Source: Albidovulum aestuarii
GTDB lineage: Bacteria > Pseudomonadota > Alphaproteobacteria > Rhodobacterales > Rhodobacteraceae
DNA: 64,000 nt
Direction: 5' to 3'
Assembly (NCBI RefSeq): GCF_029961185.1
Contig: NZ_JASBQQ010000001.1
Location: forward strand, 248,001 to 312,000
Part shown: piece after piece, positions 45,015 to 64,000 of the stretch
Position numbering within the stretch: position 1 is the stretch's first letter
Layout of the letters: the number at the start of each line of letters is the position of its first letter
Position numbers and translations under genes: made by a program
Notes under the pieces: generated by a model
Database searches by the model: none
What the model was told of the DNA's origin: nothing
The model's input: the letters and a program-made list of their open reading frames with translations, nothing else

Positions 45015-45086
45015 TGTTGGTTTCCGCTGAGAAGTGACCCGGTATTTTCACCGAGATTTGACCCACCCTTGATTATGTCTCAGCGG

Positions 45087-47655: not shown

Positions 47656-47771
47656 GATGAAGCTCCTAACAAATTTTCTAAAAAGGAATATATGTTTCTT
47701 TTTGGTTGACAGGATTCATTGTTTGACTACTCTCGATACATGAAAGAATCGTGCTGCCTAGGGAGGCGAGA

Positions 47772-48668
47772 ATGTGCGGAATCGTTGGTCTCTTTATCAA
47801 AGACCCGGCGCTGGAGCCGAAGCTCGGCGAACTATTGACGGATATGCTGATCACCATGACGGATCGGGGGCCGGACAGCGCCGGCATTGCCATCTATTCG
47901 CGGCCCGATGACGGGCTTGCCAAGATCACTGTCCAGTCGGCGAACCCGAGTGCGGATTTCGCGACGCTCGACAAGGACCTAAAAGAAGCAATCGGCAAAC
48001 CCGTCGCGCTGAAGGTCAAAAGTACCCATGCGGTCATCGAATTGCCAATGAATCAGGTCGAAGCCGCGCGCTCGGCCCTTGCACATCTGTGCCCCGACGT
48101 TCGCGTGATGAGTGCGGGCGACAGCCTTGAGATTTACAAGGAGGTCGGCCTGCCCAAGGATGTGGCAGCGCGGTTTGATCTGGCCAAGATGAAGGGTACC
48201 CATGGCATCGGCCATACCCGCATGGCAACGGAATCGGCTGTGACCACGCTGGGCGCGCATCCGTTCTCCACCGGATCGGACCAGTGCCTTGTCCATAACG
48301 GCTCACTCTCGAACCACAATTCGCTGCGCCGCAAGCTGGCGCGTGAGGGCATCCAGACCGCGACTCAGAACGACACAGAGGTTGGCGCCGCGTATCTGAC
48401 CTGGAAGATGCGCGAGGGCGCGACGCTGGGCGAGGCGCTGGAATCGACCATCGACGATATCGACGGTTTCTTCACCTTCGTTGTTGGCACCAAGGACGGC
48501 TTTGGCGTCATCCGCGACCCGATCGCATGCAAGCCTGCCGTCATGGCCGAGACTGACCAGTATGTGGCCTTCGGCAGTGAATACCGCGCGCTGGTCAACC
48601 TGCCCGGGATCGACAATGCCCGTGTGTGGGAGCCCGAGCCCTCGACCGTCTATTTCTGGAATCACTGA
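47772..48668 (+). CDS. Class II glutamine amidotransferase subunit of a split glutamate-synthase-like enzyme (GlxB/MgsA type)
   Basis: This protein of about 298 residues corresponds to the glutaminase domain of GltB. It begins MCGIVGLFIKDPALEPK, with the catalytic Cys after Met removal. GTHGIGHTRMATESAVTTLGAHPFST and the glutamine-binding LVHNGSLSNHNSLRRKL follow. It would release ammonia from glutamine and pass it to the FMN subunit encoded two genes downstream. GGGAGGCGAGA precedes the ATG. A TTGACA hexamer at 47706-47711 lies in the AT-rich upstream region, but I find no matching -10 element. First gene of a four-gene operon. Confidence 0.88.
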   Translation: MCGIVGLFIKDPALEPKLGELLTDMLITMTDRGPDSAGIAIYSRPDDGLAKITVQSANPSADFATLDKDLKEAIGKPVALKVKSTHAVIELPMNQVEAARSALAHLCPDVRVMSAGDSLEIYKEVGLPKDVAARFDLAKMKGTHGIGHTRMATESAVTTLGAHPFSTGSDQCLVHNGSLSNHNSLRRKLAREGIQTATQNDTEVGAAYLTWKMREGATLGEALESTIDDIDGFFTFVVGTKDGFGVIRDPIACKPAVMAETDQYVAFGSEYRALVNLPGIDNARVWEPEPSTVYFWNH

Positions 48669-48687
48669 AAACGGGAATGCCGAGACA

Positions 48688-49383
48688 ATGAGCAAACAGA
48701 CCTTCGATCTTTCGGCCCAAAGCCTGAGAGAGCTGAACTCGGCCCTCCACGCGCTTAAGGGGCAAACCAACCAGACTGCCTGGGACATCGTCAATCCGCG
48801 CGGCTCGCATGCCATCGCGGCGGGGCTTGACGCGCCACTTGATGTGACCGTGCATGGCTCGACCGGCTATTACTGCGCCGGGATGAACAAGCATGCGACC
48901 GTGCGGATCAAGGGATCGGCCGGACCCGGCGTGGCGCAGAACATGATGTCAGGCGCCGTGATCATCGATGGTGATGCAAGCCAATATGCCGGCGCGACCG
49001 GACGCGGCGGGCTTCTGGTGATCAAGGGTAACGCCTCGTCGCGTTGCGGCATCTCAATGAAGGGCATCGATATCGTCGTGCATGGCAATATCGGCCATAT
49101 GTCGGCCTTCATGGCGCAATCGGGCAACCTTGTGGTTCTGGGCAATGCCGGGGACGCGCTGGGAGATTCGCTCTACGAAGCCCGGATGTTCGTGAGAGGT
49201 ACGGTGAAAAGCCTTGGTGCGGACTGTATCGAAAAGCAGATGCGGCCCGAACATTACGAGCTTTTGGAAGACCTGTTGCGCCGGGGCGAGGCGGAGGGCA
49301 AGGCCAAGCCGGAGGAATTCCGGCGCTATGGCTCCGCCCGCAAGCTCTACAATTTCAACATCGACAACGCCGACGCGTATTGA
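48688..49383 (+). CDS. GXGXG-motif subunit of a split glutamate-synthase-like enzyme (GlxC/MgsB type)
   Basis: This 231-residue protein corresponds to the C-terminal right-handed beta-helix (GXGXG) domain of GltB. Repeating strands with glycine turns are visible: VTVHGSTGYYCAGMNKHATVRIKGSAGPGVAQNMMSG, YAGATGRGGLLVIKGNASSRCG and VVHGNIGHMSAFMAQSGNLVVLGNAGDALGDSLYEA. Its role is structural, holding the ammonia channel together. The ATG at 48688 starts MSKQTFDLSAQSL, 19 bases after the amidotransferase stop. Confidence 0.87.
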   Translation: MSKQTFDLSAQSLRELNSALHALKGQTNQTAWDIVNPRGSHAIAAGLDAPLDVTVHGSTGYYCAGMNKHATVRIKGSAGPGVAQNMMSGAVIIDGDASQYAGATGRGGLLVIKGNASSRCGISMKGIDIVVHGNIGHMSAFMAQSGNLVVLGNAGDALGDSLYEARMFVRGTVKSLGADCIEKQMRPEHYELLEDLLRRGEAEGKAKPEEFRRYGSARKLYNFNIDNADAY

Positions 49384-49392
49384 GGCCCCGAC

Positions 49393-50721
49393 ATGACCAG
49401 CGAATTTCCGCATACCCCGCCACGCAAGAGCTATACCTTCTCGGATGCCGTCAACGCCGAGATCCGCCGCGCCGCGGCGACCGGCATCTATGATATCCGC
49501 GGTGGTGGCACCAAGCGCTTCTTGCCGCATTTCGACGATCTTCTCTTCCTCGGCGCCTCGATCAGCCGCTACCCGCTGGAGGGCTATCGCGAAAAATGCT
49601 CGACCGATGTCTGGCTCGGCACCCGCTTTGCCAAGAAGCCGATCCACCTCGATATCCCGGTTACCATCGCTGGAATGTCGTTCGGCGCGCTTTCGGGCCC
49701 GGCAAAAGAGGCGCTGGGGCGCGGCGCCTCGGCCGCAGGGACTTCGACCACCACGGGCGATGGCGGCATGACCGAGGAAGAGCGAGGCCATTCAAAGACG
49801 CTGGTCTATCAATATCTGCCCAGCCGCTACGGCATGAACCCCGATGACCTGCGCCGCGCCGATGCGATCGAGGTCGTGGTCGGTCAAGGTGCCAAGCCCG
49901 GCGGCGGCGGCATGCTTCTGGGCCAGAAAATCTCGGACCGGGTCGCGATGATGCGGAACCTGCCCAAGGGGATCGACCAGCGCTCGGCCTGCCGTCATCC
50001 CGACTGGACCGGCCCCGACGATCTGGAGATCAAGATCCTCGAGCTGCGCGAAATCACCGATTGGGAAAAACCGATCTATGTGAAGATCGGCGGCGCACGG
50101 CCCTATTATGACACCGCGCTTGCGGTGAAGGCCGGGGCCGATGTGGTGGTGCTGGACGGGATGCAGGGCGGCACGGCGGCAACGCAGGATGTCTTCATCG
50201 AGCAAGTCGGCCAGCCGATCCTGGCCTGTATTCCGCAGGCGGTAAAAGCTCTGCAGGATCTTGGCATGCACCGAAAAGTGCAGCTCATCGTCTCGGGCGG
50301 CATCCGCACCGGCGCCGATGTGGCCAAGGCCATGGCGCTTGGCGCTGATGCCGTCGCCATCGGAACGGCGGCGCTCATTGCGCTCGGCGACAACGATCCG
50401 GCCTTCGAGGCCGAGTACCAGAAGCTCGGTACCACCGCCGGTGCCTATGACGACTGGCACGAGGGTAAAGACCCGGTCGGCATCACCACCCAGGATTCCG
50501 AGCTATACAATCGTTTTGATCCGGTTCTGGGCGGGCGGCGGCTCAAGAACTACCTCAAGGTGATGACGCTTGAGGCGCAAACTATCGCACGGGCCTGCGG
50601 CAAGAACCATCTGCACAATCTCGAACCCGAGGACCTTTGCGCCCTGACGCTGGAAGCCGCCGCCATGGCGCGTGTGCCGCTGGCGGGCACCGACTGGTAT
50701 CCGGGAAAGAACGGCTTGTAA
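49393..50721 (+). CDS. FMN-binding glutamate synthase-like subunit (GlxD/MgsC type)
   Basis: This 442-residue protein corresponds to the synthase (FMN, TIM-barrel) domain of GltB. IAGMSFGALSGPAKEALGRGASAAGTSTTTGDGGMTEEER, VGQGAKPGGGGMLLGQKIS, YVKIGGARPYYDTALAVKAGADVVVLDGMQGGTAATQDVFIE and the phosphate-binding VSGGIRTGADVAKAMALGADAVAIGTAAL are all present. It would combine ammonia with a 2-oxo acid, giving glutamate, or join methylamine-derived groups if this is N-methylglutamate synthase. It lies 9 bases after the GXGXG gene. Confidence 0.88.
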   Translation: MTSEFPHTPPRKSYTFSDAVNAEIRRAAATGIYDIRGGGTKRFLPHFDDLLFLGASISRYPLEGYREKCSTDVWLGTRFAKKPIHLDIPVTIAGMSFGALSGPAKEALGRGASAAGTSTTTGDGGMTEEERGHSKTLVYQYLPSRYGMNPDDLRRADAIEVVVGQGAKPGGGGMLLGQKISDRVAMMRNLPKGIDQRSACRHPDWTGPDDLEIKILELREITDWEKPIYVKIGGARPYYDTALAVKAGADVVVLDGMQGGTAATQDVFIEQVGQPILACIPQAVKALQDLGMHRKVQLIVSGGIRTGADVAKAMALGADAVAIGTAALIALGDNDPAFEAEYQKLGTTAGAYDDWHEGKDPVGITTQDSELYNRFDPVLGGRRLKNYLKVMTLEAQTIARACGKNHLHNLEPEDLCALTLEAAAMARVPLAGTDWYPGKNGL

Positions 50722-50753
50722 GCCGCCACAGACGAACAGGGAGGAAAAAGAAA

Positions 50754-52082
50754 ATGGTCAAGGACCTGGCGAGATTTGCCAAGGAAAACGGCGTCAAATA
50801 CTTCATGATCTCCTACACGGACCTCTTTGGCGGCCAGCGCGCCAAGCTGGTCCCGGCCGAGGCCATCGCCGATATGCAGGAGGATGGCGCGGGCTTTGCG
50901 GGTTTTGCCACCTGGCTCGACCTGACGCCAGCTCATCCCGACATGCTAGCCGTGCCCGACTCCTCGTCGGTCATCCAGCTGCCGTGGAAGCCCGAAGTCT
51001 CCTGGCTTGCGTCGAACTGCGTGATGGAGGGCAAGGGCGTCGCCCAGGCGCCGCGCAACGTGCTCGGCCGCCTGATCGACGAGGCCGCAGCCGAGGGCCT
51101 GCATGTCAAGACCGGGATCGAGGCGGAGTTCTTCCTGCTGACCCCGGACGGCAAGGAAATCAGCGACCCCTTCGATACCGCCGATAAGCCCTGCTACGAC
51201 CAGCAGGCGGTCATGCGCCGCTATGATGTGATCAAGGAAATCTGCGATTACATGCTGCAACTCGGCTGGGGCCCCTACCAGAACGACCACGAGGACGCGA
51301 ATGGCCAGTTCGAGATGAACTGGAACTACGACGATGCGATGGTCACCGCCGACAAGCATTCCTTCTTTAAGTTCATGACCAAGTCGGTGGCCGAAAAGCA
51401 CGGGTTCCGCGCCACCTTCATGCCCAAGCCGATCGAGGGGCTGACCGGAAATGGCTGCCACGCCCATATCTCGGTCTGGGACGCACCGGGCGCCAAGTCC
51501 AAGACAAATGTCTTTGCCGGCAAGGGCGATGGCCCAACCGGCGAGGTCGGCCTGTCAGAGCGCGGCAAATGGTTCCTTGGCGGGATCATGAAACATGCGA
51601 GCGCCCTTGCGGCGATCACCAACCCGACGGTCAACAGCTACAAGCGCATCAACGCGCCGCGCACCATGTCGGGGGCTACTTGGGCGCCGAATACGGTGAC
51701 CTGGACCGGCAACAACCGCACCCATATGGTGCGTGTCCCCGGGCCCGGCCGGTTCGAACTGCGGCTGCCCGACGGTGCGGCGAACCCCTACCTGCTGCAG
51801 GCCGTTATCATCGCCGCCGGGCTCGACGGCATCCGCAGCAAGGCCGATCCGGGCCGCCGCTGGGATATCGACATGTATACCGAAGGCCATAAGGTTCGCG
51901 GCGCGCCCAAACTGCCGCTGAACATGCTTGATGCGCTGCGCGAATACGACAAGGACAAGTCGTTGAAGGCGGCAATGGGCGAGGAATTCTCTTCAGCCTA
52001 CCTCAAGCTCAAGCACAAGGAATGGAACAGCTTCGTATCCCACTTCACGCGGTGGGAACACGATCACACGCTGGATATCTGA
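50754..52082 (+). CDS. glnT: Type III glutamine synthetase-like ligase (GlnT / gamma-glutamylmethylamide synthetase)
   Basis: This 442-residue ATP-dependent ligase of the glutamine synthetase fold has ISYTDLFGGQRAKLVPA and the catalytic-site strands EAEFFLLTPDGKE and DANGQFEMNWNYDDA. GLTGNGCHAHISVWD, the ATP/glutamate-binding NSYKRINAPRTMSGATWAPNTVTWTGNNRTHMVRVPGPGRFELRLPDGAANPYLLQA and a C-terminal STAYLKLKH-like helix follow. GGGAGG precedes the ATG. The family includes GlnT, and GmaS of the methylamine pathway. The two cannot be separated with certainty here. It is the last gene of the operon, followed by a strong terminator. Confidence 0.88.
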   Translation: MVKDLARFAKENGVKYFMISYTDLFGGQRAKLVPAEAIADMQEDGAGFAGFATWLDLTPAHPDMLAVPDSSSVIQLPWKPEVSWLASNCVMEGKGVAQAPRNVLGRLIDEAAAEGLHVKTGIEAEFFLLTPDGKEISDPFDTADKPCYDQQAVMRRYDVIKEICDYMLQLGWGPYQNDHEDANGQFEMNWNYDDAMVTADKHSFFKFMTKSVAEKHGFRATFMPKPIEGLTGNGCHAHISVWDAPGAKSKTNVFAGKGDGPTGEVGLSERGKWFLGGIMKHASALAAITNPTVNSYKRINAPRTMSGATWAPNTVTWTGNNRTHMVRVPGPGRFELRLPDGAANPYLLQAVIIAAGLDGIRSKADPGRRWDIDMYTEGHKVRGAPKLPLNMLDALREYDKDKSLKAAMGEEFSSAYLKLKHKEWNSFVSHFTRWEHDHTLDI

Positions 52083-52245: not shown

Positions 52246-52587
52246 ATGTCCGAGGTTACGATTGTCGGGATCGATCTGGCAAAATGTAGTTTCCACCTGC
52301 ACAGTGTCGACCGCATCGGGTCCGTCGTATTTCGCAAGAGGTTTTCCCGCGGCCATTAGCTAGGGTTTGTGTCGCAGGTTCCGCGATGTGTCATCGCCAT
52401 GGACGCGTGCGCGACGGCGCATCACTGGGGGCGCGAGTTCGCGATGCTCGGACACGAAGTGCACCTGATACCACCGGTCTATGTGAAGCCGATCGTGAAG
52501 AGGCTGAAGAATGACTCCGCCGATGCCGAGGCGATCGTCGTTGCCGCTCTGCTTCCAACCATGCGCTTCGTCACATCGAAGACGGAG
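52246..52587 (+). pseudogene. IS110 family transposase, truncated and with a nonsense codon
   Basis: From an ATG with AAGGAGAG upstream, the frame gives MSEVTIVGIDLAKCSFHLHSVDRIGSVVF with the first catalytic Asp of the DEDD domain. It then meets TAG at 52357-52359 and resumes with VIAMDACATAHHWGREFAMLGHEVHLIPPVYVKPIVKRLKNDSADAEAIVVAALLPTMRFV. The homology stops abruptly at 52588, where an IS21-type end begins. The C-terminal domain is missing. Confidence 0.85.
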
Positions 52588-52983
52588 TGTCAATTGGCTT
52601 GCAAAACTGACCCCCTTGCGTCGGCGAGATCAGGCGCGGTTCTTAAAGCACCAGGAGTCATTGCCGGTCTCGATGATCTCGCAGTGGCGGGTGAGCCGGT
52701 CGAGCAACGCGGCGGTCATCTTGGCGTCGCCGAAAACGGAAGGCCATTCGCCGAAGGCGAGATTGTTGGTGACCATGACCGAGGTGCGTGCGTAGAGGCT
52801 GCTGATGAAGTGGAAGAGGAGTTGTCCGCCGGCCTGCGCGAAGGGCAGATAGCCGAGTTCGTCGAGGATGACGAAGTCGAGACGGGTGAGATAGTCCGCA
52901 AGCCGGCCCGGCTTGCCAGCGCGGGTCTCCGCCTGCCTCAGCGCAAACGCACTCTGTTCGTCCGTGAATCGTTTCTTCGGCAT
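52588..52983 (-). pseudogene. Remnant of an IS21 element (istB 3' part) fused to the start of an IS3 family orfA
   Basis: The IS21-type end TGTCAATTGGCTTGCAAAAC begins at 52588. On the minus strand an open frame of 117 codons starts [20 protein letters not shown], typical of the first residues of IS3 family OrfA. It switches near residue 23 into the C-terminal half of an IstB ATPase ([24 protein letters not shown]...[10 protein letters not shown]). The orfA ribosome-binding site (AAGGAGAGGAG) is kept. Walker A is absent. Deletion between two elements is the simplest origin. Confidence 0.8.
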
Positions 52984-53102
52984 CTGGGCACTCCTCTCCT
53001 TCCGGAAATGTGCCTGAAAATTCGCACTCGGTTCGGATCAGTTTTCTGGGTCAAGACCCCTATCTTAGTGAAAGCCCAAATCGGTGGCCCAGACACAGGG
53101 GG

Positions 53103-53288
53103 CTAGAGTCAGGACTCACAACCAATAGATGACGGTCGCGGCCAGAGCGCAGGCCGAGAGGAACAGGATCGGGCAGCGGTCGTAGCGGGTGGCGATGCGC
53201 CGCCAGTCCTTCAAGCGAGCGAACATGTTCCTCTCGGCCTGCGCTCTGGCCGCGACCGTCATCTATTGGTTGTGAGTCCTGACTCTAG
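53103..53288. repeat. Perfect 62-bp inverted repeat with a 62-base centre
   Basis: Bases 53103-53164 are the exact reverse complement of 53227-53288, starting CTAGAGTCAGGACTCACAAC and ending at CTGACTCTAG. The centre is 53165-53226. The left arm and centre encode the end of an IS5 family transposase on the minus strand. The right arm is an inverted copy of that end, so the structure is a fold-back of one IS end. A GGATTCA/TGAATCC dyad at 53376-53394 nearby may be another IS end. The rest of 52984-53521 has no gene. Confidence 0.92.
53116..53226 (-). pseudogene. C-terminal end of an IS5 family transposase
   Basis: On the minus strand the 36 codons read MFARLKDWRRIATRYDRCPILFLSACALAATVIYWL and stop. 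This is the very C-terminus of IS5 (IS427 group) DDE transposases, which contains the catalytic-region RLK..RRIATRYDR. The upstream sequence is the inverted copy of its own end, so nothing else of the gene is left. Confidence 0.78.
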
Positions 53289-53521: not shown

Positions 53522-54451
53522 ATGTCACAAGAAGTGGAGCCGAAGACTGGTAAACGGTTTGCGCAATCATTGGATTGGAAACTTATCCGCATGTTCCACA
53601 ATATTGCTCGGGCCGGTGGTGTGTCGGAAGCTGCCCGTCAGATAAACAAAGGCCAGCCAACAGTTAGCATGGCACTTCACCGACTTGAAGAGCATCTCAA
53701 TACTTCTCTATGTAAACGTGGTCCGGGGGGGTTTGAGCTAACTGAGTCCGGCAAGATAGTCGCAGACGTCAGCGAACAGATTTTTGATGCGATCAGCAGA
53801 ATTCCCAATACGCTCAATCAGGCGGTCGAAGAACTTCGTGGGCGGGTTCGGATTCAGATGATCACAAATTTGGTGAACGACAGGTTAAATCGTCCATTAA
53901 AGAATTTCCACAACGACCACCCAAACGTTGAGCTGTTTATCGCCATTTCCACTTGGGACGTTATCCAACGAAATGTCATGCGAAATGAAGTTGAAGCAGG
54001 CATTGGACCGGCAAGTCAGCATCTTCCTGATCTTTGTTACGAGTTGCTTTTTTCTGAGGTCTACATACCGTATTGCGGTAGATCGCATCCGCTCTATGGG
54101 AAAGAGATATCGTCCCCTTCTCAATTGGCGATGCACAGACACATTCTGACTGGTGCTGATGAACCTCTTGAGTTGATCAAGTTCAGACAGAAATGGGGGC
54201 TCGGAAAGCAGATTGCAGGTTTGTCTGAACATCTTGAAGAAGCTCGGCGTCTGACAGAGCTGGGTGTTGGTGTTTGCTTTTTGCCCACAGCTTTCGCTGC
54301 ATCGGCTGTTCGCCAAGGTAGCTTGCACGAATTGATGGATGAAAAGCACGCTCCGGTTTCGAACATATATTTGATCACGAACCCGAAAGCTCCTTTTAAT
54401 CGGGTGCAAAACGCCCTGATAGAGTATTTCCGCAAGGAAATTGTAGCTTAG
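53522..54451 (+). CDS. LysR-type transcriptional regulator
   Basis: This 309-residue regulator has an N-terminal winged HTH (LDWKLIRMFHNIARAGGVSEAARQINKGQPTVSMALHRLEEHLNTSLCKRGPGGFELTESGKIV). A periplasmic-binding-protein-like effector domain follows (about 105-305). The gene is AT-richer than the chromosome. It is flanked by IS debris on both sides, and no neighbouring gene is an obvious target. It may have come in with a lost metabolic gene, or it may act on the GOGAT-like/glnT operon upstream. Confidence 0.9.
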   Translation: MSQEVEPKTGKRFAQSLDWKLIRMFHNIARAGGVSEAARQINKGQPTVSMALHRLEEHLNTSLCKRGPGGFELTESGKIVADVSEQIFDAISRIPNTLNQAVEELRGRVRIQMITNLVNDRLNRPLKNFHNDHPNVELFIAISTWDVIQRNVMRNEVEAGIGPASQHLPDLCYELLFSEVYIPYCGRSHPLYGKEISSPSQLAMHRHILTGADEPLELIKFRQKWGLGKQIAGLSEHLEEARRLTELGVGVCFLPTAFAASAVRQGSLHELMDEKHAPVSNIYLITNPKAPFNRVQNALIEYFRKEIVA

Positions 54452-54885: not shown

Positions 54886-55533
54886 TCATCTTGCCTGCGG
54901 GTAGGCGATGATTGACAAGAAACGGGCCGGCAGCTTGTGAAGCTTTCTCGGCCCGTGCGGTGCGTCCGCGTCGAAAAAAAGCGTATCGCCGGGCCCCAGC
55001 CGATAGGTGTTCTGCCCATGACGGTATTCGATCTCTCCTTCAAGCAGGTAGAGCGTTTCGACCCCTTCGTGCTGAAAGGTCGGGAAGACGTCGGATTCCG
55101 AGGTCAGAGTTATCAAGTAAGGCTCCACCTGGATGCCGAAGGAGTTTTGCCCGAGATGGCCCAAGAGCTTGTATTGATGCCCCGCACGAGTACCCTGGCG
55201 CTCGATCTCGAGCCCCTCGCCGCTTTTTGTATGCACGGCCTCTTGCACGTCCTCGAAACGGCGAAAGAACAGTGTCAACGGGACGTTTAGGGCATACGAA
55301 AGGCTTTGCAGCGTCGACAGCGATGGCGAGATGTTTCCGTTCTCAATTTTCGACAACATGCCAATCGAAAGGCCGGTCCGTTTGGCAAGGACGGCAACCG
55401 TCATGCCAGCTTGATGACGAAATGCACGAATTTCGCCGCCGATCGCGATCTCGAGCACGTTCTCACGCTCTCCGCGCGCTCGATGTGGATCCTGCGCCAG
55501 TTTCGAAGCATTCATCTCCAGCTCCTTCAACAT
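54886..55533 (-). CDS. XRE family regulator with C-terminal cupin domain
   Basis: This 215-residue regulator has an HTH (about 30-85: EIRAFRHQAGMTVAVLAKRTGLSIGMLSKIENGNISPSLSTLQSLSYALNVPLTLFFR). A C-terminal cupin barrel follows (QHEGVETLYLLEGEIEYRHGQNTYRLGPGDTLFFDADAPHGPRKL), with the His/Glu metal-type ligands. Such HTH-cupin proteins often sense small metabolites such as polyamines or amino acids and usually repress adjacent catabolic genes. Here its natural neighbours have been displaced by IS elements. An ATG six codons downstream (MNASKLAQ) is an alternative start. Confidence 0.9.
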   Translation of the reverse strand: MLKELEMNASKLAQDPHRARGERENVLEIAIGGEIRAFRHQAGMTVAVLAKRTGLSIGMLSKIENGNISPSLSTLQSLSYALNVPLTLFFRRFEDVQEAVHTKSGEGLEIERQGTRAGHQYKLLGHLGQNSFGIQVEPYLITLTSESDVFPTFQHEGVETLYLLEGEIEYRHGQNTYRLGPGDTLFFDADAPHGPRKLHKLPARFLSIIAYPQAR

Positions 55534-56440: not shown

Positions 56441-56566
56441 GCCCCAACCTACCGGGACCCTCGATCCTCCAGCACACTTCGGTCAAGATTGTGAACGGCG
56501 GAGCAATACTCGGCCACGGTAGCGGCGGCGCAGTGCGGTCGCGGGCGGCGCAAAAGTCGTCCACTT

Positions 56567-58096
56567 TTGCCCTTTCCGAGAGGGGAGGGCTTGGGGATTT
56601 TCACCGTGGGCTTGTATTTGAAGGTGCGCCGGGCTCACTTCCAGGACGGGCTGAGCGGGCGGCAGATTGCCCGGGATTTTGGCCTTAGCCGTGACAGTGT
56701 CGCGAAGATGCTGGCCTATTCGGAACCGCCTGGGTATCGGCGGACGGCGCCGATCCGACGGCCGAAGCTTGATCCGTTTGCGGATCAGATCGACCAGTGG
56801 CTTGCCGAGGATCAAGGGCGCCCCCGCAAGCAGCGCCACACGGCGAAGCGGATCTTCGAGCGGCTTCGGGGTGAATGCGGGTTTGATGGCGGCTACACAA
56901 TCGTGAAGGACTATGTCCGGCTCCGGAAGCGGACAGGCAGGGAGATGTTCGTGCCGCTGAGCCATCCGCCTGGACATGCGCAGGCGGACTTTGGTGAAGC
57001 GCTGGTGGTGATCGGTGGGGTCGAACAGAAGGCGCACTACTTCGCCTTCGATCTTCCGCACAGTGACGCCTGCTTTGTCCGGGCCTACCCTGCAGCCACC
57101 ACGGAAGCCTGGCTTGACGGGCATGTGCATGCCTTTGCGTTCTTCGGGGCGGTCCCCCAGTCGATCCTGTACGACAACGACAAATGTCTGGTTGCCAGGA
57201 TCATGCCGGATGGCACGCGGCAGAGAACGCAGCGGTTCAGCGCGATGCTTTCGCACTACGTGGTCCAGGATCGCTACGGGCGCCCAGGCAAGGGTAATGA
57301 CAAGGGGGCCGTCGAGGGACTCGTCGGATATGCCCGACGGAACTTCATGGTGCCTGTCCCGTCCTTTCCGGACTGGGATGTGTTCAACGCCCATCTCGAA
57401 GAGCAGTGCCGCAATCGCCAGGGCGATGTCCTGCGCGGCCACAAGGCCAGCATCGGTGACCGGCTGCATGCTGACCTTGCCGCGATGCGGGATTTGCCCG
57501 GCGCGCCCTTTGAAGCCTGCGATCTGCAGAGCGGCCAGGTCACGTCGACATCCGTCGTGCGTTACCGCGGCAACGACTACTCGGTGCCGGTCGCCTTTGG
57601 TCACCGCGACGTCTGGATCAAGGGCTTCGTCACCCGTGTTGTCATCGGCTGCGCGGCGCAGGTGATCGCCGATCACCCCCGGTCCTACGACACCGGCGAC
57701 ATGGTGTTCGATCCATTGCACTACCTGCCTCTGATCGAGCGCAAGATCATGTCCTTCGATCAGGCGGCGCCTCTGCAGGGCTGGGAGCTGCCCGAGGCCT
57801 TCGCCACGCTCCAGCGGATTTTGGAGGCTCGACAGGGTAAGGCCGGCAAGCGAGAATACGTGCAGGTTCTGCGCCTTCTGGAGCGCTTCGAGCTCGCAGT
57901 GCTGCATCCGGCGGTCAGGGACGCCTTGCGGATGGGCGCGGTCAGCTTCGACGCGATCAAGCACCTGGTCCTGTGCAGGGTCGAGCGGCGGCCACCCCGG
58001 TTGGATCTGGATGTCTATCCCTTCCTGCCCAGGACCAACATCGCCACCACCTCCGCTGCGTCCTACATGACCCTGCTGGCCGGGAGCGACGCATGA
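56567..58096 (+). CDS. istA: IS21 transposase IstA (copy 2)
   Basis: This DDE transposase has about 509 residues. The N-terminal HTH is KVRRAHFQDGLSGRQIARDFGLSRDSVAKMLAYS. The catalytic core has GHAQADFGEALVVIGG (first Asp), FFGAVPQSILYDNDKCLVAR (second Asp) and GNDKGAVEGLVGYARRNFMVPVPSF (Glu). The true start is uncertain: the frame opens with TTG at 56567, and GTG or TTG codons just downstream would give a start closer to the family's usual FTVELY-type N-terminus. Its stop overlaps the istB ATG. Confidence 0.93.
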   Translation: MPFPRGEGLGIFTVGLYLKVRRAHFQDGLSGRQIARDFGLSRDSVAKMLAYSEPPGYRRTAPIRRPKLDPFADQIDQWLAEDQGRPRKQRHTAKRIFERLRGECGFDGGYTIVKDYVRLRKRTGREMFVPLSHPPGHAQADFGEALVVIGGVEQKAHYFAFDLPHSDACFVRAYPAATTEAWLDGHVHAFAFFGAVPQSILYDNDKCLVARIMPDGTRQRTQRFSAMLSHYVVQDRYGRPGKGNDKGAVEGLVGYARRNFMVPVPSFPDWDVFNAHLEEQCRNRQGDVLRGHKASIGDRLHADLAAMRDLPGAPFEACDLQSGQVTSTSVVRYRGNDYSVPVAFGHRDVWIKGFVTRVVIGCAAQVIADHPRSYDTGDMVFDPLHYLPLIERKIMSFDQAAPLQGWELPEAFATLQRILEARQGKAGKREYVQVLRLLERFELAVLHPAVRDALRMGAVSFDAIKHLVLCRVERRPPRLDLDVYPFLPRTNIATTSAASYMTLLAGSDA

Positions 58097-58857
58097 CCGA
58101 CGCGCCCGAACTGCTGCTGGCGCATCACCTCAAGACCCTGCGCCTGCCGACCTTCCTGCGGGAACATGACAAGCTGGCCCGTATCTGCGCGGCAGAGGGC
58201 GTGGATCATGTGCGCTACCTGGCCCGCCTGACCGAACTCGAGCTGATCGACCGCGAGCGGCGCATGGTCGAGCGCCGGATCAAGTCGGCGAAGTTCCCGA
58301 CCGTCAAGAGCTTCGACAGCTTCGACTTCAAGGCCATCCCGTCACTGAACAAGATGATGGTGCTGGAGCTGGCGCGCTGCGAATGGATCGAGCGCAGGGA
58401 GAATGTCATCGCGCTCGGCCCATCCGGCACCGGAAAGACCCACGTCGCCCTCGGCCTGGGGCTCGCCGCCTGCCAGAAGGGCTTGCCCGTCGCCTTCGTC
58501 ACCGCGGCCTCGCTGGTTCACGAGTTGATGGAGGCCCGCGACGAGAAACGCCTGATGCGCCTCCAACGCCAGTTGGCCAAGGTCAAGCTGCTGATCATTG
58601 ATGAGTTGGGCTTCGTGCCACTGAGCAAAACCGGCGCCGAACTCCTGTTCGAACTGATCTCGCAGCGCTACGAACGCGGCTCAACCCTGATCACATCGAA
58701 CCTGCCCTTCGAGGAATGGACCGAGACCTTCGGCACCGAGCGCCTGACAGGGGCCCTCCTGGACCGACTGACCCACCACGTCAACATCCTCGAGATGAAC
58801 GGCGAAAGCTATCGCCTCAGCCAGAGCCGCGCCCGCCTCGCCGCTACAACCCAGTAA
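58093..58857 (+). CDS. istB: IS21 helper ATPase IstB (copy 2)
   Basis: This 254-residue AAA+ helper of IstA starts at the ATG overlapping the istA stop (ATGA). It has Walker A ALGPSGTGKTHVALGLGLAAC, Walker B KLLIIDELGFVPLS and [33 protein letters not shown]. It appears intact. The 136 bases after it are the right end of the element, with repeated GGCGGAGCAAAA boxes. Confidence 0.95.
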   Translation: MTDAPELLLAHHLKTLRLPTFLREHDKLARICAAEGVDHVRYLARLTELELIDRERRMVERRIKSAKFPTVKSFDSFDFKAIPSLNKMMVLELARCEWIERRENVIALGPSGTGKTHVALGLGLAACQKGLPVAFVTAASLVHELMEARDEKRLMRLQRQLAKVKLLIIDELGFVPLSKTGAELLFELISQRYERGSTLITSNLPFEEWTETFGTERLTGALLDRLTHHVNILEMNGESYRLSQSRARLAATTQ

Positions 58858-59061
58858 TCTTTACAGAATTGGCCTTATGGCCAATGCGCCTTGGAACGTG
58901 CCTGCCTGATGGGGGCCACACGCTCCAAGGCGCGCGCCCATGTGGCAGACTTTTGCTCCGCCTCAATGGCCGGATTTTGCTCCGCCGTTGACAGTCAAGA
59001 TCCAAAGTTTGTGACAGAACCGACTCAGGAATCTAATTCGCAAAGATTCAGGGAAAGGTCT

Positions 59062-59337
59062 TCATTCCTGCATTTCCGTTGGTTGGTCCGGCGTGTTTTT
59101 CGTTCGCCGTCGCACTATTCCCACGACGCTGGCGATCAGCCAGAAAAACTCCAGCATAAACGATGCCAAGTTGAATTCGAAGCACAACGAAAACAGGATA
59201 AGTGCCGCGCCCACGCCGTTGAACAGGCTGTAATAGGCTGAATCGCTGTCAACGCGCTGCAATTGCAGCAAGGAAAACGCGCCCACAATCAACAAGACGC
59301 CGATTGTCCCAACTATGTCGTGAAATTCGATTTCCAT
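59062..59337 (-). CDS. CBU_0592-like small membrane protein
   Basis: This 91-residue protein has three hydrophobic stretches (about 7-27, 38-55 and 58-75). Its pattern, DIVGTIGVLLIVGAFSLLQLQRVDSDSAYYSLFNGVGAALILFSL, resembles the CBU_0592 family of small membrane proteins. The function of that family is unknown. It is the first intact gene right of the IS cluster, 101 bases downstream of the nickel permease gene on the same strand. Confidence 0.75.
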   Translation of the reverse strand: MEIEFHDIVGTIGVLLIVGAFSLLQLQRVDSDSAYYSLFNGVGAALILFSLCFEFNLASFMLEFFWLIASVVGIVRRRTKNTPDQPTEMQE

Positions 59338-59438: not shown

Positions 59439-60140
59439 TCATGCCATTGCAGATGACAGGCACCGGAGTACGCCGACGCCGACGACAGCTAGGCCGATCG
59501 CCATCGAAAAGGCAAACTCGCCCCAGGCGGATTTCTTCTGCGCCCAGCTCACGGGCACCGAAAAAACCAGCATCATGGAGGCCATGCCCAGGATCGAGCC
59601 GGCACCGAATGCCAAGACGTACCCGATGACTTGCCATAGCGTCGAAAGCGACATCGCGGTCAGCAATATGACGAGCGCCGCAGAACCCGCTACGCCATGA
59701 ACGAGGCCGACAAACAGGGGTAATGCCGTTTTCCGAGAGAGGTGCACGGCGTGTCCTTGGTCATGGTCGGTCGGAGCCTTGGGCGTATGGCTGTGAGCGT
59801 GCATATGAACGCGGTCATCGTCATGGCGGTGAAAGTGGACATGTACGCGCCGTTTCTGCGCTGTCGAGATTGCACGCAACCCCAAAAAGATCAGCATGAT
59901 TCCAACACCGAATTCCATCCAGTGAGACATGTTATTCGAAATCGAAAACCCGCTGCGCATCACGATTGTCACCAATGCCAGAAGCGCCAGCGTGTGACCG
60001 AAGCCCCAAGCGCATCCCTGTACAATCGCCATGGTGCGCGAGGCCGTGTTGCGCGCAATGACAGAGACGGCTGCAATGTGATCGGCTTCCAGCGCATGTT
60101 GCAGGCCGATCAAAAACCCCAGGGCCATTAATGTGAGCAT
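59439..60140 (-). CDS. Nickel/cobalt permease (HoxN/UreH-like)
   Basis: This inner-membrane protein of about 233 residues has six or seven helices. The first helix carries the signature HALEADHIAAVSVIAR, the HX4DH motif that binds Ni2+ in the NiCoT/UreH/RcnA group. A histidine-rich loop (RRVHVHFHRHDDDRVHMHAHSHTP, about 105-130) lies between helices 3 and 4. GLVHGVAGSAALVIL later matches the second conserved motif. The start at 60140 (MLTLMALGFLIGLQ) fits the family. An ATG at 60164 is possible. It follows the ureohydrolase gene, so nickel delivery to that enzyme is the likely role, although RcnA-like export cannot be excluded. Confidence 0.82.
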   Translation of the reverse strand: MLTLMALGFLIGLQHALEADHIAAVSVIARNTASRTMAIVQGCAWGFGHTLALLALVTIVMRSGFSISNNMSHWMEFGVGIMLIFLGLRAISTAQKRRVHVHFHRHDDDRVHMHAHSHTPKAPTDHDQGHAVHLSRKTALPLFVGLVHGVAGSAALVILLTAMSLSTLWQVIGYVLAFGAGSILGMASMMLVFSVPVSWAQKKSAWGEFAFSMAIGLAVVGVGVLRCLSSAMA

Positions 60141-60210
60141 AATCTGTTCTCGCGTTGAAAGCATGATGCGGGCAGAATTCTGGTTCAAAGGTCCGAACAC
60201 CGCCCCTTTG

Positions 60211-60231
60211 TCGGCGGGGTCACCCCGCCGA
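60211..60231 (-). terminator. 9-bp hairpin between the ureohydrolase and nickel permease genes
   Basis: TCGGCGGGG (60211-60219) and CCCCGCCGA (60223-60231) with loop TCA, 24 bases after the ureohydrolase stop on the minus strand. No T-run follows. It may reduce read-through into the permease gene. Confidence 0.5.
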
Positions 60232-60254
60232 AAGCAAGTCATAAGGGCGTGTGT

Positions 60255-61442
60255 CTACGCGTCGCGCAGCACTTGGCCACGGTGGCCGAGCTTTCCGTTT
60301 TTGATCATCGCGCTGAGCGCATCAAGGATGACGCGTGTCGCCAGCTGCGAGGTGTTGTCATTTACGTCGTAGGGCGGCGCCACTTCGACGACTTCCATCG
60401 CGCAAAGCCCGGCACCCGCAACGATGCGCACCATTTCCAGCGCTTCGCGTGGGGAAAAGCCGCCGGGTTCGGGCGATCCAGTTCCTGGGGCATAACCTGG
60501 GTCGATACTGTCAATGTCAAAGCTCATGTAGACTGCATCACAGCCATCCCAGGCCAGCTCTAGCGCTCGCTGTGCGGTTCTTTCCGGTCCCATGTCCTCG
60601 AAGTCGCGCATGGTGATCACGCTAGTGCCGCGGTCGCGCGCCACTTCAGATCCGGGACGATTGCCGTACCATCCGCCAATACCGATCTGAACCAAATTCT
60701 TGGGCGGGCAATTTGACAGTCCGTAGTCATGCATATGGTGGTGATGCTGGTGCGCCTTTGAATGATTGACACTTTCGTGATTGTTACTGGTCCAGTACCA
60801 GGGCGTCGTGTGCATGCGTTCGTCCATGTCGATATCCTGCGTATCGAGGTGTCGGTCGAAATGGATTATGCCAACATTGCCTTTGATGTTCTGCGCCACG
60901 CCGCGCACATTGGGATAGCCCAGGCTGTGATCGCCGCCCACTATAATCGGAAAGGTTCCGGAATTGTAGATATGGCTGATGGCTAGACTAACCTGATCGA
61001 ATGTCTTTTCGATATTGCCAGGAATGACGAAGACGTCGCCCGCGTCACACAGTTCGAGTTCTTCGAAGATATCGACGGCGCCGTCCACGCAATAGCCATC
61101 ATAAAGCGCCGAGATGCGCCGCACACCCTGCGGCCCGAAACGCGTTCCGGGGCGATATGTCGTACCAGTATCAAATGGGACACCGACAAACGCGGCCTCG
61201 TAGTCACCAACCTTGCGGATATCCTCGCAATAAGGGGTCTTCATGAACGTGTTGATGCCCGCAAAAGCCGGAAGGTGCCCGCGGCTGAACAACGAGATTG
61301 AACGATCGTTGATTGACTTGGCGGCCTCGAGTCCCAATTCCAGACCGCGCTCGATTTCCCGCTTCTGCTTAGTTTGCGAAATGCGTTCAAGCTTCTTGAG
61401 GTTTCGGTTGCCTTCGAATTCGTCGGAGGGATTGTCGGCCAT
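60255..61442 (-). CDS. gdmH: Ureohydrolase family enzyme, probable nickel-dependent guanidine hydrolase
   Basis: This protein has 395 residues from the ATG at 61440-61442, preceded by AAAGGGGC. The arginase/agmatinase metal ligands are all present: GGDHS (His172), HFDRHLD (Asp196, His198, Asp200) and SFDIDSIDP (Asp309, Asp311). It is 70-90 residues longer than agmatinases because of an N-terminal extension. It has HFDRH where agmatinases have FDAH, and a long DERMHTTPWYWTSNNHESVNHSKAHQHHHHMH loop. These traits recall the Synechocystis Ni enzyme Sll1077, which splits guanidine into urea and ammonium. Its neighbours (TauABC-like importer, nickel permease) support this. Alternative: another guanidino-acid hydrolase. 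Confidence 0.75.
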   Translation of the reverse strand: MADNPSDEFEGNRNLKKLERISQTKQKREIERGLELGLEAAKSINDRSISLFSRGHLPAFAGINTFMKTPYCEDIRKVGDYEAAFVGVPFDTGTTYRPGTRFGPQGVRRISALYDGYCVDGAVDIFEELELCDAGDVFVIPGNIEKTFDQVSLAISHIYNSGTFPIIVGGDHSLGYPNVRGVAQNIKGNVGIIHFDRHLDTQDIDMDERMHTTPWYWTSNNHESVNHSKAHQHHHHMHDYGLSNCPPKNLVQIGIGGWYGNRPGSEVARDRGTSVITMRDFEDMGPERTAQRALELAWDGCDAVYMSFDIDSIDPGYAPGTGSPEPGGFSPREALEMVRIVAGAGLCAMEVVEVAPPYDVNDNTSQLATRVILDALSAMIKNGKLGHRGQVLRDA

Positions 61443-61529
61443 TGGAAAGCCCCTTTCATTTTCTTCAGTGCAACTAGGTTTCTTTGAGAGAAAAAGCAGC
61501 ACTTGAAAGCGCCGCCAGTCACGGGAAGA

Positions 61530-62669
61530 TCAGTTGCTGACGCGCCCTATCCACGCATTGGATGTGAATGTATCGCCCAACCCAGCTGCGTTCAGTGATT
61601 CCAGAATGCCGGAATCCAAACCTTCTGATGCCGGAACTGTTGTGTCCAGAACGCCGGCTTCCTGGTAGACGGTACCAAACATGTCCCAAGTGGCGGGAAG
61701 ATATCCCGCTTCGCAGTCAGGACGCCCACCGAACAGAAGCTTACCCCAGCCGCTCGGCTCGGTGGGTGGTGTAGGCGCGCCTTCGGGCAAACTTTCGCAG
61801 ATGGGTTTGCCATTTCCGATTCCGAATGCGCCCAGGTTCTGGTCGAAGTTCAGCATGACCGCGCCTTCCTGGGTCAGTTCAACATCGGCAACGGGCCAGT
61901 CCAGACCTTTGGCAACAATATCGTTGCCCTCTGCAGGGTTCTCTTTCCACCAGTTGACCGCTTCGAACCAGGCGCGCACCAGCTCTTTCGCAGTGTCGGG
62001 ATTCTTGGCAAGCCATTTCTCATTGCAGGCCATGGCCTCGGAAATCAAGCCGCGCTCCCATGTGCGGTCGGTCAGGCTGGTCTTCAGAACCTTTGCGCCA
62101 TCCCGTTTTGCCGATTGCAGTGAGAACGGAACGTAGTTCACATCAATATCCAGGCTACCGCTGACGAAAGCGGCGGCACTATCCTGCGGAAGCATGATAC
62201 GGTGATCTGCAGCGTCGAGTGGAAGGCCGGCTGCTTTGAGCGTCAGGAGCATCCACATGTGATTGAGAAATGCATAATCAGCACCAAAGCTCTTACCCTC
62301 AAAATCCTCGACCGATCCGATTGATTCATCAACGACCATTTGATCCAGCCCGAAGGACATAGCGGGAACAGCAACGACCTTGACCGGCACACCAGCGGCC
62401 CGCGCCACGACAACACTATCAAGTGTGTTCATCATACAAGCCACCGTGCCCGACGTTAGCGTAGCGTTCTTAGCGGTGATATCTTCAATAAGCCGGATAT
62501 TGATGTTGATGTCTTTGGCCATCCCCTTTTCCTGCACGATGTACCACGGCGCATATGGCGAGAAAGATATAATGGCGATATCAACATCTTCCGCGGCCTG
62601 AACAGGTGCCGTCAGCGTTGCAGCGCAAACCGCACCCGGTAGCCATTTGAATTTCTTCTTGATAGACAT
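61530..62669 (-). CDS. NMT1/TauA-type ABC transporter substrate-binding protein
   Basis: This 379-residue periplasmic binding protein has a signal peptide (MSIKKKFKWLPGAVCAATLTAPVQAA, cleavage near 26). The two-lobed NMT1/SsuA fold follows, with FSPYAPWYIVQEKGMAKDINI, LTSGTVACMMNTLDSVVVARAAGVPVKVVAVPAMSFGLDQMVV and SAAAFVSGSLDIDVNYVPFSLQSA. GGGAGGACACGAAA precedes the ATG. It lies between the ATPase and ureohydrolase genes. A cationic nitrogen compound such as guanidine is the likely ligand given the context. Relatives also bind taurine, thiamine precursors or urea. Confidence 0.88.
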   Translation of the reverse strand: MSIKKKFKWLPGAVCAATLTAPVQAAEDVDIAIISFSPYAPWYIVQEKGMAKDININIRLIEDITAKNATLTSGTVACMMNTLDSVVVARAAGVPVKVVAVPAMSFGLDQMVVDESIGSVEDFEGKSFGADYAFLNHMWMLLTLKAAGLPLDAADHRIMLPQDSAAAFVSGSLDIDVNYVPFSLQSAKRDGAKVLKTSLTDRTWERGLISEAMACNEKWLAKNPDTAKELVRAWFEAVNWWKENPAEGNDIVAKGLDWPVADVELTQEGAVMLNFDQNLGAFGIGNGKPICESLPEGAPTPPTEPSGWGKLLFGGRPDCEAGYLPATWDMFGTVYQEAGVLDTTVPASEGLDSGILESLNAAGLGDTFTSNAWIGRVSN

Positions 62670-62733
62670 TTTCGTGTCCTCCCAGTTTCGGACGGCTTGG
62701 GCTGTCCGTTTTTGTATTGTTTCTGTCGTCAAC

Positions 62734-63534
62734 CTAAGCAGCTGCCGCCGCTACGATTTCTTCGCGCATCATCGCAAAGAGCTTTCGCTCCATCTGGGCG
62801 TAGCCGTCCTGATCGAACATCTCTTCTTTCTGCTTGAAGCGTTTTCCCTTCTTAAATTCCATCGGAATGCTTTCCTTGATCCGGCCAGGATTTCGCGTGA
62901 AAAATATGATCCGGTCTGCCATATATATGGCCTCTTCGATATCATGGGTCACAACTAGGACGGTCTTTTTCTCACGCTCAATCACCTCAACCATCATTTC
63001 CTGCATCTCCCAACGCACCTGCGCATCCAGCGCGCCGAACGGTTCGTCCATCAATATGATTCGTGGGTTCTGCGCCAGCGTCCGGGCGATGGCCACACGC
63101 TGTTTCATGCCGCCCGACAGGCTGGCCGGGTAGCTGTGCGCAAACTTTTCCAAATGCACCAGCTTGAGAAAATCCTGCGCTGTTTTTTCACGATCGTCCT
63201 TAGGGACGCCCATGATTTTCATGCCGTATTCGATGTTTTTTTTGGCTGTCAGCCATGGGAAGGAAGTATAGGCCTGAAAGATCATGCCACGGTCCGGGCC
63301 GGGCTTTGAAATCGGAGTGCCAAACGTTTCAAGCGAGCCTTGCGTCGGCAGCTCCAATCCTGAAATCAACCGCAGCATTGTTGTCTTGCCGCAACCGGAC
63401 GGACCGATGAAGGCAACGACCTCACCCTCATGAACTTCCATCGCGACGTCGTGAAGCGCAGTGAAGGTACCATTGACGTATTGTTTGACAATACCATTGG
63501 CCGATACAGCGAGCTCTTGTGATTGTGTTGTCAT
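62734..63534 (-). CDS. ABC transporter ATP-binding protein (TauB/SsuB type)
   Basis: This 266-residue cytoplasmic ATPase has Walker A GPSGCGKTTMLRL, Q-loop FQAYTSFPWLTAKKNIEYGM, signature LSGGMKQRVAIARTLAQNPRIILMDEPFGALD with Walker B, and the switch His in VVTHDIEEAIYMADRI. A short C-terminal tail follows. It starts 3 bases after the permease gene and is 64 bases from the binding-protein gene, so all are one operon. Confidence 0.95.
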   Translation of the reverse strand: MTTQSQELAVSANGIVKQYVNGTFTALHDVAMEVHEGEVVAFIGPSGCGKTTMLRLISGLELPTQGSLETFGTPISKPGPDRGMIFQAYTSFPWLTAKKNIEYGMKIMGVPKDDREKTAQDFLKLVHLEKFAHSYPASLSGGMKQRVAIARTLAQNPRIILMDEPFGALDAQVRWEMQEMMVEVIEREKKTVLVVTHDIEEAIYMADRIIFFTRNPGRIKESIPMEFKKGKRFKQKEEMFDQDGYAQMERKLFAMMREEIVAAAAA

Positions 63535-63537
63535 GGC

Positions 63538-64000
63538 TCAAACTTTCTTTTTGATGTTCCACGGAAACAGAACCCGTTGAACGACGCGGAAAAAGATATC
63601 TGTCAGCACGCCCAGCACGCCAATCATGAATATGCCGGCCATGATTGTATCGACGTTAAGGAATCGCCCTGCCCGCATCATCACTGCGCCAATCCCATCG
63701 GACGCGCCAACGATTTCGGCAATCACCAGATATGTCCAACCCACGGCAATCATTGTGCGCATGCTGTCTATGATCGCAGGCATAGCCGCGGGCACCACAA
63801 CTTCGAGTACGATACGCGCGCGTGACGCCCCCATGGTTAGTGCGGCTTCGGTGTATTCGCGTTGCACCGCCTCAGTATTATCCAGAACCATGGCAATCAG
63901 GAAGAACAGCACACCCAGAAACAGCAGTCCCATCTTCGCCGTTTCGGAGGGGCCGAACCAGACCAGCAGCAGGGGGATAAAGGATGCTGCCGGCAGATAG
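63538..64000 (-). CDS. ABC transporter permease (TauC/SsuC type), 5' end outside window
   Basis: The last 153 residues or so of an inner-membrane permease are visible. The frame is open to the window edge (YLPAASFIPLLLVWFGPSETAK..). The EAA loop that docks on the ATPase is YTEAALTMGASRARIVLEVVVPAAMPAIIDSMR, followed by WTYLVIAEIVGASDGIGAVMMRAGRFLNVDTIMAGI as in TauC/SsuC. It is upstream of the ATPase gene. The promoter and any leader of the operon lie beyond base 64000. Confidence 0.93.
   Translation of the reverse strand, partial: YLPAASFIPLLLVWFGPSETAKMGLLFLGVLFFLIAMVLDNTEAVQREYTEAALTMGASRARIVLEVVVPAAMPAIIDSMRTMIAVGWTYLVIAEIVGASDGIGAVMMRAGRFLNVDTIMAGIFMIGVLGVLTDIFFRVVQRVLFPWNIKKKV

Follow-up and report, generated by a model that had tools for sequence, protein, structure and literature searches.

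The Operon and Its Genes

We analysed a 64,000-nt stretch of the Albidovulum aestuarii genome (C12:248001-312000, called the window below), and the main subject is an operon at its end that encodes a 395-residue ureohydrolase. The operon is located at G000:C12:307439-312437. A sequence-only reading of the window had described a TauABC/NMT1-type importer, the ureohydrolase, and a nickel/cobalt permease as collinear. This order was borne out, with all the genes at 59439-64437 lying on the minus strand. In the order of transcription, the operon consists of the following genes:

63538-64437, minus strand: ATP-binding cassette (ABC) permease of the TauC type, 299 residues, first gene of the operon (Pfam BPD_transp_1, 6.5e-23); cut by the window end at 64000, full gene at L001:5538-6437
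62734-63534, minus strand: ABC transporter ATPase of the TauB type (Pfam ABC_tran, 6.2e-33)
61530-62732, minus strand: NMT1/TauA-type substrate-binding protein (Pfam NMT1, 1.4e-14)
60255-61442, minus strand: ureohydrolase, 395 residues, ATG at 61442 (Pfam Arginase, PF00491, 5.5e-76, 256 bits)
59439-60242, minus strand: NicO-family permease with a His-rich loop, nickel/cobalt type by family (Pfam NicO, 30.5 bits against a cut-off of 27.7)
59062-59337, minus strand: small membrane protein (CBU_0592 family), the 3′-terminal gene of the operon, with no functional link shown

The HFDRH and DERMHTTP motifs of the ureohydrolase were both found where the sequence-only reading had placed them. The His-rich loop of the permease is also present; the family label of this protein is the weakest of the operon calls. 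That reading had passed over four features: the His-rich insert of the enzyme itself, its missing GTGW Trp, the LysR gene at 53522-54451, and the methylamine genes mgsABC-gmaS at 47751-52082.

Family Placement and Distribution of the Ureohydrolase

The best solved structures for the 395-residue protein were the guanidinases 9fek of Nitrospira inopinata (455 bits) and 7esr of Synechocystis (444 bits), and the next best was a guanidinobutyrase with 160 bits. A Foldseek search with the AlphaFold model (mean predicted local distance difference test score, pLDDT, of 82.8) placed the same two structures on top at 52% and 51% identity, respectively, with a TMq of 0.86. The protein contains the Arginase domain of the ureohydrolase/arginase superfamily and has its six metal ligands, the His residues H172 and H198 and the Asp residues D196, D200, D309, and D311.

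Relatives were collected by a pattern scan of a genome collection. It showed that 402 stretches encode a relative, and 80 loci were kept. Forty-one of these (L039-L078 and L086), with 66-96% identity to the window protein, form together with the window a clade of 42 loci. The remaining 39 (L079-L118 without L086; 54-59% identity) were used for comparison. They are a non-random set, being those nearest to the window protein that bear one of six exact peptide patterns. Locus genes were called by a longest-open-reading-frame heuristic, and homologues were counted by BLAST on all open reading frames of at least 50 residues. The metal ligands are kept in all 42 clade sequences (41 of 41 for D309 and D311).

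In a maximum-likelihood tree of 99 rows, which omitted L077 and 19 of the 29 loci L003-L031, the 41 clade rows (the window and 40 others) were joined with a support of 100/100, apart from the rows around 9fek and 7esr. The sister of the clade (97/100) comprises nine rows lacking the Trp of the GTGWPE motif, eight of them actinobacterial; the root is unsure owing to the long branches of the outgroups (3nio, 1gq6, and five paralogues from the window's genome). The protein belongs to the GdmH family in the wide sense, as it groups with 7esr and 9fek as against agmatinase, guanidinobutyrase, and proclavaminate amidinohydrolase. The kinship to guanidine hydrolase rather than to these three enzymes, proposed earlier from the sequence, was supported by structure matches, the tree, and Foldseek. 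The protein falls outside the strict GdmH clade, which contains 7esr and 9fek, and Ser323 takes the place of the GTGWPE Trp. Five other arginase-family genes of the genome all lie away from the operon.

Within the window's order, only one of 390 genomes, the window's own, gave a match at E ≤ 1e-145, while relatives at 55-61% identity occur in 53 of the other 393 genomes of the family. The clade enzyme is therefore rare in this order and was probably acquired by this genome. On viral contigs, no relative was found with the peptide patterns used. The plasmid search returned 101 records, every one below 60% identity.

The Clade Signature: A Lost Trp and a His-Rich Loop

The GTGWPE motif reads GTGSPE in the window protein (residues 320-325). 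All 41 clade sequences that extend to this site have Ser or Thr there instead of Trp (L086 stops short of it); the Trp is kept in 28 of the 39 others. By our own count on pairwise alignments, the replaced residue corresponds to Trp313 of the N. inopinata enzyme and Trp305 of that from Synechocystis. The tilt of this Trp is described in the comammox study as controlling access to the active site by opening or blocking it (PMC11410670).

The second feature is the stretch from DERMH to NLVQ. It has 16 residues in all 39 comparison sequences and 33-47 residues in all 42 clade members. The lengthened loop surrounds an invariant HxxHxHMHDxGLxNC, in which H238 and N244 are common to all 81 sequences. 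The loop residues W217, T218, H231, H234, H236, M237, D239, G241, L242, and C245 are invariant in the clade. In the window ureohydrolase, the His-rich insert spans residues 217-237 and is modelled with low confidence, as a flexible segment (pLDDT below 50 at residues 219-221 and 231-237).

Two further groups of GdmH-like proteins lack the GTGW Trp. One is the mostly actinobacterial sister group (L079-L084, L087, L090, and L096), which has no guanidine-I riboswitch in its loci and whose loops are short, mostly DERMHTTH. It may perhaps represent another substrate switch. The other consists of two proteins from Bacillota (L099 and L109), also without a riboswitch in the locus; their genomes carry riboswitches elsewhere. 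Five matches were found in the L109 genome, of which two were placed by sequence and three by coordinates.

Absence of the Guanidine-I Riboswitch

The window's genome gave no match to the guanidine-I riboswitch (150 of 171 first-look candidates scored), and none of the 42 clade loci carries it. The riboswitch, a usual but not a universal companion of GdmH, shares the locus with the enzyme gene in 24 of the 39 comparison loci (22 above the gathering score; L103 and L107 below it). When the comparison loci were divided by Trp state, it was present in 24 of the 28 Trp-bearing loci and in none of the 11 Trp-less ones. Eighteen clade loci were additionally scanned against all Rfam, and no riboswitch of any kind was detected in them. 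At the genome level, 7 of 38 clade genomes have a guanidine-I riboswitch above the cut-off, always outside the locus of the enzyme. These counts are minima, with at most 75 (clade) or 73 (comparison) first-look candidates scored per genome. Five of the eight matches in clade genomes were placed by sequence, and three by contig coordinates together with Rfam scans of L060 and L066. L058 was outside the whole-genome searches, but was scanned with Rfam.

In Hyphomicrobium (L135), Methyloceanibacter (L136), and Primorskyibacter (L138), the riboswitch precedes a different NMT1-family protein (Pfam NMT1 above the cut-off). Identities among these three proteins, and between them and the binding proteins of the Trp-bearing loci L094 and L098, range from 55 to 80%. 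To the window's binding protein, the three show about 23-25% identity where BLAST aligned them. Some hosts of the clade enzyme thus possess another importer, which is linked to the riboswitch. According to a study on Vreelandella, its Gd-I riboswitch binds guanidine, and not methylguanidine at 0.005-1 mM, by measurement (PMC12508155).

Methylamine Genes Near the Enzyme

Genes for methylamine assimilation, mgsABC-gmaS, are located at 47751-52082, 8 kb from the ureohydrolase operon. They include the domain set of the N-methylglutamate pathway (GATase_6, GXGXG, and Glu_synthase) together with gmaS. The features of this part of the window are as follows:

47751-48668, plus strand: MgsA-like glutamine amidotransferase, N-methylglutamate synthase subunit (Pfam GATase_6)
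48688-49383, plus strand: MgsB-like GXGXG protein (Pfam GXGXG; start picked by eye)
49393-50721, plus strand: MgsC-like glutamate-synthase-domain protein (Pfam Glu_synthase); the genome has another copy, with 89% identity, at C27:206891
50754-52082, plus strand: GmaS, gamma-glutamylmethylamide synthetase, a type III glutamine synthetase (620 bits to 7cql, RhGmaS; start picked by eye)
53522-54451, plus strand: LysR regulator, parted from the operon by an IS21 copy
54886-55533, minus strand: XRE-cupin regulator; the one in the L057 mgd-mgs locus is 64% identical, and the one in the C27 locus of the window's genome is related
56490-58993, plus strand: IS21 element (istA-istB), 2504 bp, with the 8-bp target duplication GTCAAGAT

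The structure 7cql is that of RhGmaS, for which the published Km is 27 µM for methylamine, 58 µM for ethylamine, and 16 mM for dimethylamine (PMC7948447). A second mgs set, with mgd genes of the sarcosine-oxidase type, is present on contig C27 of the window's genome, and a urease alpha gene lies at C12:875748.

Methylamine genes also occur beside the clade enzyme in other hosts. In Hongsoonwoonella zoysiae (L057), soxB- and soxA-family genes (above cut-offs) are transcribed divergently from the enzyme gene at a distance of about 250 bp. Small soxD- and soxG-like genes (below cut-offs) follow, and then an XRE-cupin regulator and mgsABC. These families also include sarcosine oxidase; as mgs adjoins, we read the set as a putative N-methylglutamate dehydrogenase (mgd). 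In L045, mgsABC-like genes are found downstream of the enzyme. One BLAST cluster of glutamine synthetase recurs in eight more loci (L040, L042, L056, L059, L062, L063, L073, and L078); that of L073 passes TIGR03105, and its best solved relative, 9qur, is named 'Glutamate--methylamine ligase'. Altogether, a GmaS-like glutamine synthetase or mgs was present in 11 of the 42 clade loci and in 1 of the 39 others (L118; Fisher 0.004). For mgs alone, three neighbours were seen against 0.16-0.31 expected (P about 0.0006-0.004, a rough estimate based on uniform placement and assumed 4-Mb genomes). Hyphomicrobium, Methyloceanibacter, and Aminobacter, which are among the host genera of the clade, are methylotrophs.

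Importer, Regulator, and Other Neighbours in the Clade

A binding protein at least 58% identical to that of the window was found in 15 of the 41 other clade loci and in none of the 39 comparison loci. The window's binding protein is about 23-28% identical to the five riboswitch- or guanidine-hydrolase-linked ones that BLAST aligned. A LysR protein 40-55% identical to the window's is present in 19 of the 41 other clade loci, again compared with none of the 39; two of these 19 were run on Pfam, and both are LysR. The importer near the GdmH gene of Synechocystis is presumably also of the NMT1 type.

Hyphomicrobium facile has two copies of the clade enzyme (L069 and L071), one with an ABC importer and one with a trimethylamine N-oxide (TMAO)-permease-like carrier. 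Such a carrier occurs in three clade loci (family-checked in L070; the match in L068 is partial and 9 kb off), and in L070 and L071 it stands upstream of the enzyme. FolD was found in five clade loci (Pfam-checked in L072). A recurrent block in L042, L073, L078, L040, L056, L059, and L063 contains, in varying sets, the type III glutamine synthetase, an APC permease, AllG-family, MetX-like hydrolase, flavin mononucleotide (FMN)-reductase-like, and TetR genes. Near the enzyme of L048, L049, L050, L057, L060, L064, and L065 lies a polysaccharide-deacetylase-like gene (family-checked in L064 and L057), joined in some of these loci by genes resembling short-chain dehydrogenases/reductases.

Metal Transporters and Chaperones

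The window permease only just passes the NicO model of Pfam and misses both NCBIfam cut-offs; no NCBIfam model was passed, and the sub-cut-off matches were ArsG (33 of 200 bits) and nico (23 of 333 bits). By BLAST, a NicO-like (10) or HupE/UreJ (9) transporter is present in 19 of 42 clade loci as compared with 2 of 39 comparison loci. Both counts are BLAST-based, and Pfam was run on selected proteins. HupE_UreJ was passed by all five clade proteins tested and NicO by two of eight (the window and L039). The NicO-like proteins of L046, L060, and L062 fall below the NicO cut-off, and those of L040, L051, and L074 match nothing in Pfam. The protein of L062 (5439-6152) passes the DsbD_2 model instead. 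As for the two matches in the comparison set, L109 passes NicO and L113 fails. The clade transporters are homologous to the window's or to HupE, and their cargo may be nickel, most firmly in the HupE loci. The metal-supply module suggested by the sequence-only reading is thus supported in part, by the excess of transporters in clade loci; the NicO label held in Pfam for two of the eight proteins tested.

That reading had also seen no chaperone genes, and this proved correct. HypA gave no match in the window's genome, and it is present in 14 of 38 clade genomes. With one query, HypB was found in four of 42 clade loci (L040, L041, L063, and L064), of which L040 and L063 also have an open reading frame with the HypA motif. 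The same HypB query and HypA motif revealed a clear pair among the 39 comparison loci only in L112, with a weak HypB match in L111. Loci without adjacent chaperones are common in both sets alike, and a comammox guanidinase without chaperones is already in print (PMC11410670), so the chaperone-free arrangement has little of the novelty first claimed for it. HupE beside a related ureohydrolase is likewise in print, for metformin hydrolase (PMC11399263).

Mobile Setting of the Locus

The operon lies between two IS21 elements of 2504 bp and identical sequence. Copy 1 is at 56490-58993, and copy 2 is found directly upstream of the operon at 64666-67169 in joined coordinates. An 8-bp duplication accompanies copy 1, and copy 2 has none. 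A composite transposon around the operon was rejected on these grounds. The separate duplication of copy 1 also means that it interrupted a region where the LysR gene, the XRE-cupin gene, and the operon were already close neighbours.

A partial IS110-type transposase gene lies between gmaS and the LysR gene (52369-53106). The last 13 bases of a tRNA-Thr gene (41935-42010; repeat at 41995) recur at 74434 (joined coordinates), beside an integrase-domain gene (L001:15079-16446). On this basis, the mgs genes and the operon may belong to one 32-kb genomic island bounded by the tRNA repeat. Such an island is not claimed as the source of the mgs genes, because mgsC has relatives of 95-98% identity in several genus members. 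Two other observations were made by eye: a 478-residue open reading frame at L001:10844-12280 has a reverse-transcriptase-like look (no NCBIfam match), and the region 42350-47406 of the window has one that resembles type I restriction HsdR, next to a second, different istAB pair of the IS21 type.

Comparison with Known Systems

The window enzyme resembles GdmH/guanidinase (Sll1077, 7esr/7oi1; N. inopinata 9fek) in its fold, its six metal ligands, and the start of the loop, DERMHTTPW. The Synechocystis gene also has an ABC importer gene nearby (PMC11410670). The window clade differs from GdmH in its separate position in the tree, the Ser or Thr at the Trp site, the long loop with HxxHxHMHDxGLxNC, the missing guanidine-I riboswitch, the LysR gene, and, in some loci, the methylamine genes.

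With the metformin and dimethylguanidine hydrolases MefH/DmgH (MetCaCb, MfmAB), as described in PMC11399263, it shares the ureohydrolase fold, and their substrates are likewise of the alkylguanidine type proposed here, with HupE adjacent. The window enzyme is 25-27% identical to them. They are heteromeric pairs with HypAB adjacent, whereas the window operon has one ureohydrolase gene with all metal ligands intact and no HypAB.

The MgdH/MgdL system of Vreelandella allows methylguanidine to serve as a nitrogen source, as would the pathway proposed below. It consists of a dioxygenase and a lyase and proceeds by an oxidative route to guanidine and formaldehyde under guanidine riboswitches (PMC12508155).

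Proposed Function and Alternatives

The 395-residue protein is, somewhat more probably than otherwise, a nickel-type ureohydrolase that splits methylguanidine, or a close N-alkylguanidine, into methylamine and urea. From the gene set and the residues described, we infer the substrate and metal of the enzyme, what the importer and the permease carry, how the genes are regulated, and whatever part the His-rich loop plays. The TauABC-type importer would bring methylguanidine into the cell, where its hydrolysis at a dinuclear nickel site would yield methylamine and urea, and the NicO-like permease would supply nickel to the ureohydrolase. The LysR protein, now split off by the IS21 insertion, may sense the substrate. 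GmaS and Mgs would convert methylamine into gamma-glutamylmethylamide and N-methylglutamate, with N-methylglutamate dehydrogenase joining in methylamine use, and urease would release ammonia from the urea. Guanidine, which the sequence-only reading had taken as the likely substrate, is probably wrong, because the riboswitch is absent, the active-site Trp is lost, and methylamine genes lie alongside.

We know of no gene assigned to methylguanidine amidinohydrolase (Enzyme Commission number EC 3.5.3.16), and none was assigned in the open-licence literature searched. This enzyme of Alcaligenes performs the reaction proposed here, and no sequence assigned to it was found in that literature for comparison; strains that convert methylguanidine into methylamine and urea are reported, and methylguanidine is named as a breakdown product of creatinine (PMC11764249). 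Methylguanidine specificity would be new, because neither the comammox guanidinase nor MefH/DmgH uses this compound.

These enzymes also count among the points that weigh against the proposal. The comammox guanidinase gave no urea from methylguanidine, which its authors call consistent with the cyanobacterial enzyme (one sentence prints 'methylguanine'; PMC11410670), and MefH/DmgH are given as inactive on it (PMC11399263). Ser or Thr at the Trp site is also found in distant ureohydrolases, e.g., 3nio and 1gq6. The riboswitch and Trp states follow the tree, and Fisher values therefore overstate independence. In the DNA fetched, 31 of 42 clade loci have no methylamine gene (several contigs are short). 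The mgs genes of the window lie in a stretch rich in insertion sequences, where nearness may be chance; the genome has the second mgs set on C27, and the genus members G010 and G482 carry mgs and gave no match to the enzyme. The glutamine synthetases of the eight loci are only 32-39% identical to the window GmaS, one of them (L073) having been run on NCBIfam and PDB, and that of L045 is below the TIGR03105 cut-off. The substrate range of GmaS is broad, as its Km for ethylamine indicates (PMC7948447). Finally, the NicO-like label is weak in most clade loci.

It appears rather unlikely that the enzyme hydrolyses another small guanidine (dimethyl-, ethyl-, or hydroxyguanidine, or a ring-opened guanidino compound), its proximity to methylamine genes being confined to some hosts. 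A wider pocket might follow the Trp loss. The deacetylase-like gene in six clade loci by clustering and in L057 by Pfam, and the TMAO-permease-type carrier upstream of the enzyme in L070 and L071, would agree with such a substrate. So would dimethylguanidine as a substrate of the distant DmgH (PMC11399263) and the use of ethylamine by GmaS. The preference of GmaS for monomethylamine (27 µM) over dimethylamine (16 mM) argues against it (PMC7948447).

We regard as unlikely a plain GdmH guanidine hydrolase whose regulation has moved from the riboswitch to LysR, with the loop and the Trp change being neutral or concerned with metal loading only. Its nearest characterised enzymes are guanidinases, the importer is of the same broad NMT1/Tau kind, a metal transporter stands in the operon, and urease is in the genome. 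The uniform loss of the Trp (41 of 41) and the absence of the riboswitch from 42 of 42 loci speak against this, as do the different importer subfamily and the separate riboswitch-linked NMT1 proteins held by some of the same genomes.

It is quite unlikely that the operon and the methylamine genes are chance neighbours that insertion sequences have assembled and that have no pathway in common (which would be compatible with the other readings), for although the identical IS21 copies, the IS110 fragment, the second mgs set with mgd genes on C27, and the close mgsC relatives in the genus fit it, IS21 copy 1 with its own duplication landed in an already contiguous stretch, independent adjacency is seen in L057 and L045, and the three mgs neighbours exceed expectation.

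Implications

A bolder form of the methylguanidine proposal is tentative: the clade may be the missing gene family of EC 3.5.3.16, through which marine and methylotrophic proteobacteria would channel the carbon and nitrogen of methylguanidine to urease and the N-methylglutamate pathway, with the invariant His-rich loop at the active-site entrance possibly acting as a built-in nickel loader in place of HypA/HypB. If the proposal is true, a gene would be assigned to a reaction so far known to us as an activity only, and it would show how a guanidine hydrolase changed its substrate. With the Trp and loop signature, proteins annotated as 'agmatinase/guanidinase' could be sorted into those that use guanidine and those that probably use an alkylguanidine. 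The His-rich loop would offer a concrete test case for metal acquisition by chaperone-less nickel ureohydrolases, and the methylamine cycle of methylotrophs in the sea and in soil would gain a link to methylguanidine.

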